This document shows positions 23,087 to 63,356 of a DNA stretch of 64,000 nucleotides, piece after piece. Position 1 is the first letter of the stretch, and each line of letters starts with the position of its first letter. Under the pieces are notes generated by a model. That model was given only the letters and a program-made list of their open reading frames with translations. It was not told the DNA's origin and did not search any database. Source of the DNA: an uncultured bacterium (GTDB lineage: Bacteria; Cyanobacteriota; Vampirovibrionia; Gastranaerophilales; Gastranaerophilaceae); NCBI GenBank assembly GCA_902774905.1, contig CACYKF010000001.1, positions 62,001 to 126,000 of the forward strand, in the 5' to 3' direction. A program made the translations under genes and the position numbers.

Positions 23087-23131
23087 TCCCCTCTACCAAT
23101 GGGAGAGGGTGCCCGTAGGGCGGGTGAGGGT
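23087..23131 (-). repeat. GC-rich palindromic repeat upstream of rplM
   Basis: On the minus strand it reads CCCTCACCC...CCCTCTCCCA...AGAGGGGAAA, the same frame of motifs as at 62593-62630 (inside ymdB) and 19004-19107. It lies between truA and rplM and ends 35 bases before the rplM start. Confidence 0.75.
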
Positions 23132-28277: not shown

Positions 28278-29645
28278 ATGTCAATTATAATAATGATTTT
28301 ATTGCTAAGTTTTTTGATTCTTGTTCATGAGGCAGGACATTTTATGGCTGCCAGAATGTTGGGAATTAAGGTTGATAAATTTGGGTTTGGTCTGCCGATA
28401 GGCCCGACTTTATGGAGTAAAAAAGTCGGAGATGTAGAAGTTTTGGTTCATGCTTGTTTGCTGGGTGGATATGTTGCATTTCCTGATGACGATAAAGAAT
28501 CAAATTTGCCAGCCGATTCAAAAGACAGGTTTGTAAATCGTCCTGTTTGGCAAAGAATGATTGTTATAAGTGCAGGTGTTATTGCAAATGTAATTACGGC
28601 AATTTTGCTTGTTATGTTTACTGCTGCAATTTGGGGTAAACTGCCGTCGGGAAATTATCAGGTATTTATAAATTCAATTACGGCTGAAAAAACAGAATCC
28701 GTATGGCAAAGCGGTTTGCAAAAAAATGACAGAATTATAAAAATTAATGGTTCTGATATTCATTCAACTTATGCAATTTCTCTTTATTCAAAAAATAGTG
28801 CAAGATTTGACGGGCGTGTGAATGAAAAATTTGCGACAGAAAATCTTGCCAAATTGCAAAAACTTAATCCTTCTTTAGATGCTGAAAAAATAATTAAAAA
28901 AGGTCAAATAGTAAAAATCGGTTCTGATGAAGTTATTGAACCGAAAATTGTTATAAAAGACGAAGAATTAAAAGGCTATGCTCCTTATAAAAATGATGAA
29001 ATTCAGTTATCAAAAGAGCAGATAAAATTAAGAAATTCTATTAAAAACGGAACTTATGTATCTGACGGAACTTATACCCTCAAAGATTTGTCTTATGCCT
29101 TATCTGACGGTTTAAAGCCTGTTGAAATAACTGTTTTGAGAAACGGTAAAGTTGTTGAGTTGAATCCGATTTATCCTAATAAAGACGGAATAATAGGCAT
29201 TTCTATGGCTGCGAAGCAGGATTTGACGGTTACAAAAACTTCCGCAAAAATATTTACGGAAAGTTGTAAATACATTTGGGAACAAACATATATGCTTGTT
29301 TACGGTTTGTGGCAGTTATTTAGCGGTAAAATCCCCGCTAAAGATTTGCACGGTATTGTTGTTATCGCAAAAATCGGCGGTGATGTAATAAAAAACAGCG
29401 GAATGTTTTCAGGATTATTATTGACTGCAATGATTTCAATGGATTTGGCATTAATAAACTTCTTGCCCATTCCGGCGTTAGATGGCGGGCATTTTATGTT
29501 TTTACTTATTGAAAAACTACGAGGAAAACCGCTAAATCAGGAAAATATCGAAAAAATAAGCAATATATTTTTCTTACTCCTTATTTTACTTATGATTCTG
29601 ATAATTTTTAATGATGTCTATGCGCTTTTAAAACACAAGTTTTAA
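28278..29645 (+). CDS. rseP: RseP-family intramembrane zinc metalloprotease
   Basis: This site-2 protease cuts membrane-anchored regulators or signal peptides within the membrane. The 455-aa product has HEAGH at residues 17-21 in the first helix, a PDZ-like region (about 130-300) and the second active-site motif NFLPIPALDGGHFMF near the end. The PDZ region is longer than in the E. coli protein, with an inserted Lys-rich helical stretch. A GAGAGGG ribosome site is present. It overlaps the convergent gene by 4 bases. Confidence 0.9.
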   Translation: MSIIIMILLLSFLILVHEAGHFMAARMLGIKVDKFGFGLPIGPTLWSKKVGDVEVLVHACLLGGYVAFPDDDKESNLPADSKDRFVNRPVWQRMIVISAGVIANVITAILLVMFTAAIWGKLPSGNYQVFINSITAEKTESVWQSGLQKNDRIIKINGSDIHSTYAISLYSKNSARFDGRVNEKFATENLAKLQKLNPSLDAEKIIKKGQIVKIGSDEVIEPKIVIKDEELKGYAPYKNDEIQLSKEQIKLRNSIKNGTYVSDGTYTLKDLSYALSDGLKPVEITVLRNGKVVELNPIYPNKDGIIGISMAAKQDLTVTKTSAKIFTESCKYIWEQTYMLVYGLWQLFSGKIPAKDLHGIVVIAKIGGDVIKNSGMFSGLLLTAMISMDLALINFLPIPALDGGHFMFLLIEKLRGKPLNQENIEKISNIFFLLLILLMILIIFNDVYALLKHKF

Positions 29646-30892
29646 TTATCTCTTAACCCGGGGTCTGAGTATGAACCTGTTACGAGTTTGTTAAAGCCGT
29701 ACTGAAGTTTTGGCAAAACTATAGCAAGCAATGCACTGCTTATTGCGACATTTGATAAGATGTTTATTCCTTTTACAAATTTTGCTTTTTTAATAAATTT
29801 TGTGATGTCAGAAGATTCTTTTGCAGATTTGATAAAGTTTTCAAATTCCTTTTTAAAGTTTGCCAAATCTTTTACATCAACATATTTTCTCGGGTCTCTT
29901 ATGCCGTTTTCAAGATATGAAACTTTGTCCTGCATACTTGCAAATTTTGAAAACAGGCTTTGCGGTTTTGTGTCAATAAATTCAAAAATATCTTTTGCAT
30001 TGTTTGATTTAGGGAGTTCAATTTTATCTTCTTTTATTGCTTGTATAAGTTCTTTATTATCCATAATAAGCGGGTCAAGATTGACATTAAGCCCAAATGC
30101 TTTATTTGCACATTTGTCAAGGAATTTTGCTATATAAATAGGAGTAACAAAATTTAGTATCATTGAACCTATCATTCTGAAAGCATTTACGAATGCTTCG
30201 TCTTTGTTTCTTGAGGTCGAAACTCTGCCGACAGTCAATCCGCCATCTGTTATTGCCATTTTGTCAACGGTTTTCATATTTGCTATTGCCCCAACAAAAT
30301 TGCCGGTAAAACTTACATTTTTACCTGACTTAAACGCGGTAATAGATTGACGAAATGTGATATTTTGAGTGCCATAATTGTTTTGTTGCTTTCTGTTTTC
30401 TTTAATTCTTTTAGTTAGTGCAAAATTAAGTTTTGGCAGTACAAAACCCATTAGTGCTGTCGGAATAATAATAGCAGATGCAAATTTTCCTGCAATAAGT
30501 TTTTCAAAAATTTTGCGGTTGTTTTTTATTTTTTCAAGTTCTTCAACTTCTTTTGACGCGATATTTTTGAATTTTTTAATATTATATTCTATTCCCTGAA
30601 ATTCGTTTTCTTTGAATAGTTTGATGTCAGTATTGGGATTAAATCCTTTTGATTTGATAAATTGGTTATAAACTTTTTCTACAAAAGGGATTCCGCCTAA
30701 CCACAATGCTGAAGTTGCGTATTCATCTATAAATTTTTCTCTTGTTGCGTCATTTGCCTTCGTTTTTGATTCTTTCAGATTTTCCTTGCGTGTAATATAT
30801 ATTTTTGACGGTACTTCTATTCCGCAATCTCTTAATATTAAAGGGTAAACGCTTCTGTTATTTCCTATTGCCGATATAATATTTGTAATCAT
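29642..30892 (-). CDS. Hypothetical membrane protein, histidine-free, downstream of a His-leader attenuator candidate
   Basis: This 416-aa Lys/Asn/Ile-rich protein has three likely membrane helices (about 135-157, 237-256, 378-397) and a short motif VSFTGNFVGAI. I know no function. It contains no histidine at all. A GAGG ribosome site precedes ATG 30892. Upstream on the same strand lie a terminator hairpin, a 16-codon peptide with five His codons, and a strong promoter, so expression may respond to histidyl-tRNA supply. Confidence 0.65.
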   Translation of the reverse strand: MITNIISAIGNNRSVYPLILRDCGIEVPSKIYITRKENLKESKTKANDATREKFIDEYATSALWLGGIPFVEKVYNQFIKSKGFNPNTDIKLFKENEFQGIEYNIKKFKNIASKEVEELEKIKNNRKIFEKLIAGKFASAIIIPTALMGFVLPKLNFALTKRIKENRKQQNNYGTQNITFRQSITAFKSGKNVSFTGNFVGAIANMKTVDKMAITDGGLTVGRVSTSRNKDEAFVNAFRMIGSMILNFVTPIYIAKFLDKCANKAFGLNVNLDPLIMDNKELIQAIKEDKIELPKSNNAKDIFEFIDTKPQSLFSKFASMQDKVSYLENGIRDPRKYVDVKDLANFKKEFENFIKSAKESSDITKFIKKAKFVKGINILSNVAISSALLAIVLPKLQYGFNKLVTGSYSDPGLRDN

Positions 30893-30948
30893 TTATTTTT
30901 CCTCAATTCTGTGTCTTTACGCAATTTCCTCTACCTTTTTGCGAGGGT

Positions 30949-30991
30949 AAAAAATAACCTCTTTAGGCTTGATTTTCCCGAAGAGGTTATT
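30949..30991 (-). terminator. Attenuator-type terminator before the histidine-free membrane protein
   Basis: An 11-bp stem (30953-30963 with 30981-30991) has a 17-base loop and is followed on the minus strand by six T. It lies between the His-rich peptide and the 416-aa gene. Its 5' arm contains CCTCT, complementary to AGAGG at 31040-31036 overlapping the peptide's stop codon, so an alternative pairing is possible. Confidence 0.75.
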
Positions 30992-31038
30992 AACAGAATT
31001 GATTATATTTTACAAGCACATCACAACTCTTACAGCCT

Positions 31039-31089
31039 CTACGGGTTGATATGATGAGTATGATGATGTTTTTGTAAATAATTTTTCAT
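31039..31089 (-). CDS. Histidine-rich leader peptide (16 aa)
   Basis: ATG 31089 to TAG 31039 encodes MKNYLQKHHHTHHINP, with five His in six residues. It resembles the hisL leader peptide of enteric his operons (a KHHHHHHHP core). A GGAAAG ribosome site lies about 10 bases upstream, and a near-consensus promoter lies 22 bases before the start. A terminator follows about 50 bases after the stop. A role as a ribosome-stalling leader is inferred; a metal-binding microprotein is the alternative. Confidence 0.7.
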   Translation of the reverse strand: MKNYLQKHHHTHHINP

Positions 31090-31110
31090 AAATTTTATCT
31101 TTCCTTTTTT

Positions 31111-31138
31111 ATTATACATAAATAAATTCTTATGTAAA
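31111..31138 (-). promoter_or_regulatory. Promoter of the His-rich leader
   Basis: TTTACA (31138-31133), a 16-base spacer and TATAAT (31116-31111). The expected start is near 31104, giving a leader of about 15 bases before the peptide's ATG. Confidence 0.7.
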
Positions 31139-59149: not shown

Positions 59150-60598
59150 ATGAACAAATTAAAAGAGAAGGCATTTACTTTATCAGAAATTATTATAACT
59201 CTTGGAATAATTGGAATTGTTGCTGCATTAACGATTCCTACATTAATTCAAAATTCCAATTCAAAAAAGTTTTTGACTCAATTTAAAAAATCAATATCAA
59301 CATTAAATCAAGCGGCAATCGGAGCGCAGGCTCAATATGATTTGGATTATTCTTTACTGACACAAATTAATGACGATGCGACATGCAAAAGTGATACTCT
59401 TGCGGCAGGTAAATACAGTCTTTGCGGACTGTTTAATAATACGCTTGCCGGTCATACATATATCGGGAAATACGGGAATGTAAAAGGGGCAAATGCATCA
59501 ACACCTTACAGTGCCAATGTTACAAGTTTTTCAATAGAAAACTTTTTATTCTTTTCATTTGCTGACGGTGCGATAGTTGCATTTAATCCGAACGCAAAAG
59601 GTTGCGGAATCGGTGTTGGTCAAACCTTAACAACTGAAAAACTGACAAACAGTTTATCTAATTGTATCGGGTTTATAGATGTGAACGGACCTACGCCTCC
59701 GAATAAAGAAGTTCAATGTGCAGAGGTAACAACAACGATATCTGCCAATACTACTTGTAAAGTAACCAACGGCAGTATGGGGGATATTTTTCCTGTCGTA
59801 TTTCATGACGGCGCAGTAGAACCTGCAACGAATGCATCACTAGCGGCATTTTTAGGTGGTAATGGAAAAGAAAATCTGTCTTTGGAAGAAGAAAGTACCG
59901 TGGCCCCTCCTAAAAAAATAACATTCAAGGGTAATGACTATGAATATTATGACGGGGCAAATGCATATATTAGAAAAGATTCAAATGGTAATTATATTTC
60001 GGCCAATGGTGATGTTTATTCAAAAAATTCAAATGGAATTTATTCGGGGCCTGACGGATATTTATATGATGAAAATTTGAATGTAATAGGCAGAAATTAT
60101 AACGGATATTCGTTCAGTTATAAAGGTGATGTTTTGGTTCGTGATGTTGGGAATGGTGTTTATAAAGGCCAAGGTGGTATGACTTATACTCCAAATTCAA
60201 ATGGGGGGTATAATCGTAGTGATGGCGCAGTGTTAGATTCCAATTTTAACATTCTTGGTCAAAATAAAAATGGAAATTGGTATGATTATAAAAACGGATT
60301 CTTTGTAAAAGAAAATGCTGACGGAAGTTATTCAGGCAGTGACGGAAAAGTTTATACGAAAGACTCTGAGGGTCGTTATGTGAATAATAATACATATTAT
60401 GACAAGGATATGAATATAGTTGGTGAAATTTATAAAGGTAATTGGTTCGATTATAGAAGCGGGTTATTTGTTCGTGAAGTTGGAGATGGAACTTATAAAG
60501 GTCATAGTATGACATATAAAATGAATGATGATGGATATTATGAGCGAAGTGATGGCAATGTATATGATGATGAATTTATATTTATAGGTCATAAATAA
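59150..60598 (+). CDS. Type IV pilin-like protein fused to a tandem-repeat domain
   Basis: The 482-aa protein has a prepilin N-terminus: KEKA-FTLSEIIITLGIIG, with Glu5 for methylation but Ala rather than Gly at the cleavage site. It is followed by a pilin-like head with four Cys (about 80-200). Residues about 258-482 are four imperfect repeats of about 55 aa rich in Tyr, Asn, Gly and Asp (units around YEYYDGANAYIRKDSNGNY, WYDYKNGFFVKENADGSY, WFDYRSGLFVREVGDGTY). Such repeats may bind calcium or glycans and make this an adhesin pilin. Confidence 0.8.
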   Translation: MNKLKEKAFTLSEIIITLGIIGIVAALTIPTLIQNSNSKKFLTQFKKSISTLNQAAIGAQAQYDLDYSLLTQINDDATCKSDTLAAGKYSLCGLFNNTLAGHTYIGKYGNVKGANASTPYSANVTSFSIENFLFFSFADGAIVAFNPNAKGCGIGVGQTLTTEKLTNSLSNCIGFIDVNGPTPPNKEVQCAEVTTTISANTTCKVTNGSMGDIFPVVFHDGAVEPATNASLAAFLGGNGKENLSLEEESTVAPPKKITFKGNDYEYYDGANAYIRKDSNGNYISANGDVYSKNSNGIYSGPDGYLYDENLNVIGRNYNGYSFSYKGDVLVRDVGNGVYKGQGGMTYTPNSNGGYNRSDGAVLDSNFNILGQNKNGNWYDYKNGFFVKENADGSYSGSDGKVYTKDSEGRYVNNNTYYDKDMNIVGEIYKGNWFDYRSGLFVREVGDGTYKGHSMTYKMNDDGYYERSDGNVYDDEFIFIGHK

Positions 60599-62489: not shown

Positions 62490-63356
62490 ATGACAAAAAT
62501 GGATAATAACGTAATCAAAATCATATTTTTCGGAGATATTGTCGGCAAGCCGGGGCGCAGTGCCGTAAGGGATTTTTTGGCTAATAACAAAACCCTCACC
62601 CCTACCCCCTCTCCCAAAGGGCGAGGGGAGTGCCATTATGATTTTGTTATTGCTAATATTGAAAATGCATCTCATGGTTTCGGTTTGACCGAAAAGAATT
62701 ACAACGAGTTTATTGAGTATGGTATAGATGCAATGACCTGCGGAAATCATATTTGGGATAAAAAGGATATTTATTCATACATTGACAATGCTGATAGGCT
62801 TATTCGTCCGATTAATTATCCGCATGGGGTTAAAGGTGTCGGAAGTCGTATTTTTGAAAAGAACGGTATAAAAATAGGTGTCATAAATTCTATCGGCAGA
62901 GTATTCATGAACACTGTAGATTCTCAGTGGAAAATTGTTAAAGAAGAAATAGCCAAAATTAAAGAGATAACTCCGATAGTAGTTATGGATTTTCATGCAG
63001 AAGCGACCGCAGAAAAAATTTGTTTTGCAAAATATTGTTCAGAGTTTGGCATGAGTGCATTTTGGGGAACGCATACGCATGTTCAGACGGCTGATGAAAG
63101 TATAATAAACGGTATGGCATACATAACAGATGCCGGTTTTTGCGGAGCAAGTGACGGGGTTATCGGAATGGAATACCAAACATCTCTGTCACGATTTTTG
63201 ACAGGTATTCCGGAAAGATATGAAGTTGCACAAGGTAAAACAACTCAGGTTAACGCCCTTGAGGTTGATATTGATGTTAACAGCGGTTGTGCTTTGGCGG
63301 TAAAAAGAGTTTTTTGTAGTAATAGTAAAGTAGAGGAAAGTGGAGATGAAAACTGA
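62490..63356 (+). CDS. ymdB: YmdB-family metallophosphoesterase with repeat-derived insertion
   Basis: This 2',3'-cyclic nucleotide phosphodiesterase (TIGR00282 type) has 288 aa. It shows IIFFGDIVGKPGRSAV, FVIANIENASHGFGL, MTCGNHIWDKKDIY, VVMDFHAEATAEK and FWGTHTHVQTADE, which together supply the two-metal ligands. Residues 35-47 (TLTPTPSPKGRGE) are encoded by a GC-rich repeat at 62593-62630, where relatives have a plain loop. The start codon at 62490 lies in a repeat remnant; ATG 62499 is possible. Confidence 0.92.
   Translation: MTKMDNNVIKIIFFGDIVGKPGRSAVRDFLANNKTLTPTPSPKGRGECHYDFVIANIENASHGFGLTEKNYNEFIEYGIDAMTCGNHIWDKKDIYSYIDNADRLIRPINYPHGVKGVGSRIFEKNGIKIGVINSIGRVFMNTVDSQWKIVKEEIAKIKEITPIVVMDFHAEATAEKICFAKYCSEFGMSAFWGTHTHVQTADESIINGMAYITDAGFCGASDGVIGMEYQTSLSRFLTGIPERYEVAQGKTTQVNALEVDIDVNSGCALAVKRVFCSNSKVEESGDEN
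62593..62630 (+). repeat. GC-rich palindromic repeat inside the ymdB coding region
   Basis: CCCTCACCCCTACCCCCTCT followed by CCCAAAGGGCGAGGGGAG. It is far richer in GC than the surrounding gene and belongs to the same family as 23087-23131. It keeps the reading frame open. Confidence 0.85.

Follow-up and report, generated by a model that had tools for sequence, protein, structure and literature searches.

A predicted ribosome-mediated histidine attenuator precedes a family of nearly histidine-free membrane proteins in uncultured Melainabacteria

Mycobacterial polycysteine leader attenuators control their downstream genes through a run of Cys codons in a mini-ORF. The locus reported here resembles the enteric hisL leader (Rfam RF00514, His_leader), with which it shares a peptide carrying a run of His codons, the protector, antiterminator and terminator hairpins, and the stalling logic. 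RF00514 was the top Rfam match of the leader and the match spanned the whole model, but it scored 24.7 bits where the family threshold is 49, and the family was not listed for any of 19 further His-leader loci at E values up to 1. Histidine-leader attenuators, together with HisR and T-box control of his genes, have been described in Firmicutes and Actinobacteria, where a histidine transporter is also under such control and where the HisR regulon of two histidine-auxotrophic Actinobacteria is reduced to the transporter and hisR (PMC9413887). In addition, amino-acid biosynthetic pathways, whose proteins are needed in starvation, avoid the amino acid concerned, which is known as low cognate bias (PMC4209129).

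In this study, the window is the whole 64,000-nucleotide stretch of DNA that was analysed. An earlier note on it had listed a promoter, a ribosome site, a 16-codon ORF with five His codons, an 11-bp hairpin followed by T6, and a 416-aa ORF lacking histidine, and every one of these elements was found again. They are given below together with the segments of the predicted switch.

31111-31138, minus strand: promoter-like site TTTACA-16-TATAAT (TTTACA 31138-31133, TATAAT 31116-31111), 11 of 12 consensus matches
31099-31105, minus strand: SD-like AGGAAAG of the leader ORF, by direct reading of the sequence
31039-31089, minus strand: leader ORF MKNYLQKHHHTHHINP, 16 codons plus stop, five His (CAU) codons, conserved across loci
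31061-31078, minus strand: segment 1, the LQK-His codons, pairing with segment 3 in the protector stem (94.9% of cells paired vs 33-50% when slid)
31032-31045, minus strand: segment 2, antiterminator 5′ arm CCCGTAGAGGCTGT (end of the leader ORF, stop codon and next bases), pairing with segment 5
31024-31030, minus strand: segment 2′, AGAGUUG, able to pair with segment 4
31009-31023, minus strand: segment 3, UGAUGUGCUUGUAAA, protector 3′ arm, which may also touch the terminator loop
30993-31002, minus strand: segment 4, UCAAUUCUGU, partner of segment 2′ or segment 7
30977-30990, minus strand: segment 5, antiterminator 3′ arm ATAACCTCTTCGGG, overlapping the terminator 5′ arm
30949-30991, minus strand: intrinsic terminator, 11-bp stem (30991-30981 with 30963-30953) followed by T6
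30901-30912, minus strand: segment 7, ACAGAAUUGAGG, including the SD of the target gene (GAGG 30904-30901), pairing with segment 4
29642-30892, minus strand: target gene, 416 aa, histidine-free predicted membrane protein of no known family

The leader ORF runs from an ATG at 31089-31087 to a TAG at 31041-31039 (minus strand); a further ATG in the same frame, at 31119, falls within the −10 region and probably does not serve as a start. The loci of the genus show a comparable promoter-like site ahead of the leader. The folding stability of the leader was 4 standard deviations beyond that of shuffled sequences, none of 200 shuffles being as stable. Among ORFs of no more than 40 codons on both strands of the 64-kb window, just one other contained four or more clustered His codons, a TTG-start frame near 60114. 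A palindromic repeat like ACCCTCTCCCAAAGGTAGAGG is interspersed in the window (30928-30948, 23090-23110 and 62606-62626), with three copies at no more than 3 mismatches and none in shuffled sequences. It was also seen as longer inserts at two other loci, in the gap between terminator and SD (L008) and upstream of the paralogue (L042).

The earlier note had proposed that AGAGG (31040-31036, minus strand), which lies over the leader stop codon, can pair with CCTCT in the 5′ arm of the terminator; AGAGG is present as described, within a longer predicted antiterminator formed by 31045-31032 and 30990-30977. Two helices were found beyond that first description, a protector stem of 31078-31061 (the LQK-His codons) with 31023-31009, and a helix of 31002-30993 with 30912-30903 that reaches into the target-gene SD. 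In the alignment of 36 leaders from which pairing statistics were taken, 96.2% of the cells of the antiterminator (2:5) were paired, vs 39-52% when slid; both sides had changed at three pairs, and none of 500 shuffles was equally good. The terminator (5:6) was paired in 97.5% of cells, with compensatory change at three pairs, and the protector (1:3) was largely invariant.

As the His run begins in segment 1 and the ORF ends in segment 2, the position of the ribosome should set the fold. This was examined by folding 35 leaders with the ribosome footprint removed, the footprint being assumed to extend 12 nt past the codon. When the A site held the first His codon, segment 5 paired upstream, in the antiterminator, in 33 of the 35; when the ribosome had reached the stop codon, segment 5 lay in the terminator stem in all 35; and with no ribosome the terminator was preferred in 33. 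A fold that follows the ribosome in this manner is the logic of classical attenuation. The locus combines a mini-ORF whose cluster of codons for one amino acid is kept at homologous loci with a terminator and an antiterminator that have a common arm, the leader codons being placed so as to switch them. It was also observed that the terminator loop contains CAAGCG, the complement of CGCUUG in segment 3. The two change in concert in L018-L020, L023 and L032, and a loop contact or pseudoknot between them is possible in the genus leaders.

Of 46 genomes from the genus, 38 have an orthologue of the 416-aa protein. In 36 of 37 upstream regions read, a mini-ORF starts with ATG and contains three to five His codons (for example LQKHHHNHHINLKRL, LQKHHNHHINLKGL and LQKHHKNHHIDLKRL), and the 37th locus (G035) has six consecutive His codons with no usual start codon in frame. 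The number of His codons is four or five in 35 of these 36 leaders, despite gain and loss of codons within the run, and the stop position shifts, being CCG-UAG in the relatives of the window and further along in other loci. A covariance model built from the leader (R1) was run on the genomes of the genus and the family. In the genus it returned a single strong site, ahead of the orthologue, in each of 37 genomes; the one remaining orthologue (G011) is interrupted by a contig end, and the eight genomes lacking an orthologue gave no strong site. Within the family, 111 of 239 genomes had a site, and all of them carry the gene, including one (G221) in which it is cut at a contig end. Weak R1 matches in G007, G001 and G087 (E about 0.01-0.06) were discarded after their sequence was read, no His ORF being present. 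Neither a clear orthologue nor the leader is present in the genus members G007, G009, G013, G016, G025, G036, G037 and G039.

Beyond the genus, a His-rich mini-ORF stood upstream of the orthologue at all 40 loci fetched from 22 other genera, some of them too divergent to be reached by R1 (e.g., MFTPSVKRHHHNHHHCH, MKTKNQNRFHHHHHHLG and MITNIVTKLHHHHHA). The comparison of homologous loci that the earlier note called for has upheld its reading: members of the genus retain both competing stems, antiterminator and terminator, as well as the run of His codons, and this run persists in 22 further genera. Sequence comparison led to named relatives that are metagenome bins from rumen and gut, carrying the label Cyanobacteria or Candidatus Melainabacteria.

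The earlier note had also asked whether homologues of the 416-aa protein lack histidine, and they do so almost completely: the genus proteins contain 2 His among 15,385 residues, and those of the other genera 19 among 17,298. This content (0.1%) compares with 1.47% in the nearest paralogues of the same genus, which are clear full-length homologues (hhalign probability 100%), and the avoidance is therefore specific to the subtype that lies under the His leader. It must be noted that the absence of histidine from the single protein, taken alone, is weak evidence: the chance of zero His in 416 residues is 0.0016 at the window average of 1.54%, and three further ORFs of the window also have none. 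The nearest paralogue has a different leader, which ends in KANAPIVKLMNLxWGL-stop and has CGA-CGA near its start (L042, L246-L262, L235-L243). Most of the genus members read share its peptide, which can still be recognised in other families of the order, and since it is the peptide itself that is conserved, this leader may act as a nascent-peptide sensor.

The genome of the window, 99.8% complete, lacks hisD and hisB and retains hisS, from which the organism is predicted to be a histidine auxotroph. Across the 239 family genomes, 139 carry the target gene and 64 carry hisD, with only three having both (G050, G056 and G206), 136 the gene only, 61 hisD only and 39 neither (Fisher p 3e-26, with shared ancestry ignored); hisB gave the same pattern. 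As these bacteria have lost many pathways, trpA was used as a control, and within the genomes lacking it the association persisted (3 both, 135 gene only, 34 hisD only, 38 neither; p 8e-16, shared ancestry again ignored). Contrasts within genera offset only partly this blindness of the Fisher tests to phylogeny. In genus g21 the gene is carried by six genomes and hisD by six, without overlap; in genus g6 the numbers are eight and six, with one genome in both sets; and in genus g41 they are one and ten, again without overlap. The 39 genomes with neither and the three with both indicate that the gene is neither necessary nor exclusive. One of the latter, G206, has a compact cluster resembling a his operon (L190, G206:C10:24000-38000), and its relatives are histidine auxotrophs. 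Its hisD outscores most of the family by about 100 bits, and the cluster is consistent with horizontal acquisition or reacquisition. A His leader ahead of this operon was sought, and no His mini-ORF was present in the 14 kb examined.

The locus is therefore probably a ribosome-mediated histidine attenuator controlling a membrane protein that helps auxotrophs to obtain histidine. Its two parts differ in strength: the regulatory reading, drawn from sequence comparison, is very probable, and the role in histidine acquisition is a reasoned guess for which the case is about evenly balanced, so that the joint statement is placed between them. When charged tRNA-His is ample, the ribosome would pass the His codons, reach the stop codon and cover segment 2; segments 5 and 6 would then form the terminator, leaving the gene off. 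If charged tRNA-His ran short, the ribosome would stall at the His codons and mask segment 1, which would free segment 3 and let segment 2, aided by the 2′:4 pairing, pair with segment 5. That pairing would block the terminator, and read-through would allow the membrane protein to be made. Being nearly free of histidine, the protein could be produced during the shortage itself. Since the gene is kept almost only where histidine synthesis has been lost, it would most likely aid histidine uptake or scavenging.

A second membrane-protein family in these genomes has leaders of the same design. In the genome of the window, the gene of a Cys-free protein of 509 aa is preceded by MRYVNLNNLICCCCKFCLRTYL (L265, G000:C38) and a second copy by MKYSFVENLICCCCKSCC (L295, G000:C37), both of them Cys-run peptides ahead of Cys-free or Cys-poor membrane proteins. 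The 21 close homologues across the family comprise 13 with Cys-run leaders, two of which (G114 and G104) owe their assignment to the first scan or to inspection of the upstream DNA and not to the final classifier, and eight with Ser-run leaders that use TCN codons (e.g., MKKLYALTTSSSSSSSSNKFPTGLILKLCV). Terminator-like hairpins follow most of these leaders. The proteins avoid the corresponding residue. Cys content is 0.13% in Cys-leader proteins vs 0.57% in Ser-leader proteins (p 1e-4) and Ser content is 4.9% in Ser-leader proteins vs 7.1% in Cys-leader proteins (p 5e-6), while His content, taken as a control, does not differ (p 0.92); residues were pooled, so that these p values are approximate. 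Direct profile comparison of the 416-aa target with this family gave 29%, which rose to 91-97% with a merged profile, and the models of the two show a similar order of long helices; homology between them is probable, not proven. Tentatively, and as a plausible picture that falls short of being probable, these proteins may form a Melainabacteria-specific set of membrane proteins of new fold, each member acquiring one amino acid that the cell cannot make (His, Cys, Ser, perhaps more) under its own attenuator and purged of that residue, with loss of a pathway matched by retention of the module.

As regards the 416-aa protein, the earlier note had held that the target is not a known his gene, and this agrees with the lack of any match in Pfam. 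Sixty homologues searched against Pfam and NCBIfam, and a profile against PDB sequences, gave no match to a transporter (HisXYZ, YuiF and others). The AlphaFold2 model is confident (mean pLDDT 88) and all-helical, with four long helices, and the sequence has two clear hydrophobic segments and perhaps two more. With two to four likely membrane helices and no transporter family match, uptake is a guess from regulation and distribution. The best Foldseek match had an E value of 0.57, and the best structural match, the ABC-type IrtB (Z 6.0, rmsd 6.4), is within the chance range for helical models; naming a fold was accordingly rejected, the matches among the families in the searched set being too weak (Z at most 6.0). 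An internal repeat in the protein (hhalign 66%) is suggestive only. The orthologue appears to be a single-gene unit in a variable neighbourhood, and a conserved neighbourhood was discarded as a clue to function, given the few recurring neighbours among 19 loci. Those that recur are a relA/spoT gene close to the His-leader gene at seven loci (L195, L192, L202, L196, L205, L200 and L208), a DUF167 gene, often between the two, at six, and a Na/Ala symporter and a UDG-family gene at five.

The alternative that survives best accepts the attenuator and denies that the protein takes part in uptake, seeing in it a general envelope or stress protein induced by starvation for a single amino acid, for instance in surface attachment, contact-dependent feeding or dormancy. 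It would account for the few membrane helices, the lack of a transporter family or clear fold match and the nearness of relA/spoT in 7 of the 19 loci, and it is a serious competitor. We consider it rather doubtful, however, as the single leader specificity of each subtype (His, Cys or Ser) and the link to loss of histidine biosynthesis better fit an amino-acid-specific task.

It is also conceivable, and in our judgment unlikely, that control is mainly translational, segment 4 holding segment 7 and the SD in a helix except when the leader ribosome stalls, with the T-run hairpin secondary. In helix 4:7, segment 4 (CAAUUCU) pairs with AGAAUUGAGG, which includes the target SD, its alternative partner being segment 2′. 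The ends of the helix vary in a matched fashion (CUGU:ACAG, CUAU:AUAG, CUUA:UAAG), and it is stronger than in shuffles at 33 of the 36 loci in the genus and at 21 of the 40 from other genera. Several of these other genera show no clear T-run, and control there may act on translation. In the genus, on the contrary, T5-T6 follows the stem at nearly all loci and terminator and antiterminator covary, and computed SD accessibility does not differ significantly between the stalled and stop states (p 0.20). Helix 4:7 suggests a translational layer added to the attenuator; as the change in accessibility is not significant, we infer this layer and do not count it as a result.

His and Cys runs are typical metal ligands, and the conserved feature might be a metal site in a His-rich peptide that binds or senses metal, with the codons themselves irrelevant. 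This is very improbable: related loci have Ser runs at the same position, the target proteins avoid the cognate residue, the gene follows histidine auxotrophy, and the His codons overlap a stem of the predicted switch. Finally, CAT repeats form easily in an AT-rich genome, and the idea of a meaningless His-rich mini-ORF next to a hairpin is refuted by conservation over 23 genera, compensatory changes and a single site per genome.

The leader codons name an amino acid, and an attenuator of this kind would thus reveal what an anonymous protein family responds to. For uncultured gut bacteria that rely on others for their amino acids, it offers direct, testable leads on function (His, Cys, Ser) for membrane proteins outside the family libraries searched. 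The proteins also offer a clean evolutionary case of cognate-residue avoidance, the Cys-leader subtype being Cys-poor and the Ser-leader subtype Ser-poor with His unchanged as a control, and the His, Cys and Ser leaders ahead of similar proteins point to an amino-acid-starvation system in Melainabacteria. No description of leader peptides or attenuators in these bacteria was found in the literature searched, which covered few subscription journals. The mechanism is of a known kind; as far as that literature shows, neither the targets nor a design covering several amino acids has been described for this lineage.

In comparison with the enteric his leader, the window sequence falls below the RF00514 threshold, its target is a single membrane-protein gene instead of the his operon, and its hosts mostly lack histidine biosynthesis. 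The target is not a histidine biosynthesis gene (it has no Pfam match, and the genome has no hisD or hisB), which places it outside the his regulon. The systems of Firmicutes and Actinobacteria are likewise His-leader attenuators beyond Proteobacteria, but their targets are known his genes or HisXYZ/YuiF transporters (PMC9413887), whereas the target of the present attenuator belongs to an uncharacterised family, in another phylum. Unlike the mycobacterial polycysteine leaders, the Cys leaders of these bacteria precede Cys-poor membrane proteins of no known family. And while the low cognate bias described before concerns biosynthetic pathways (PMC4209129), in this lineage it is found in a membrane protein of auxotrophs and goes down to zero residues.
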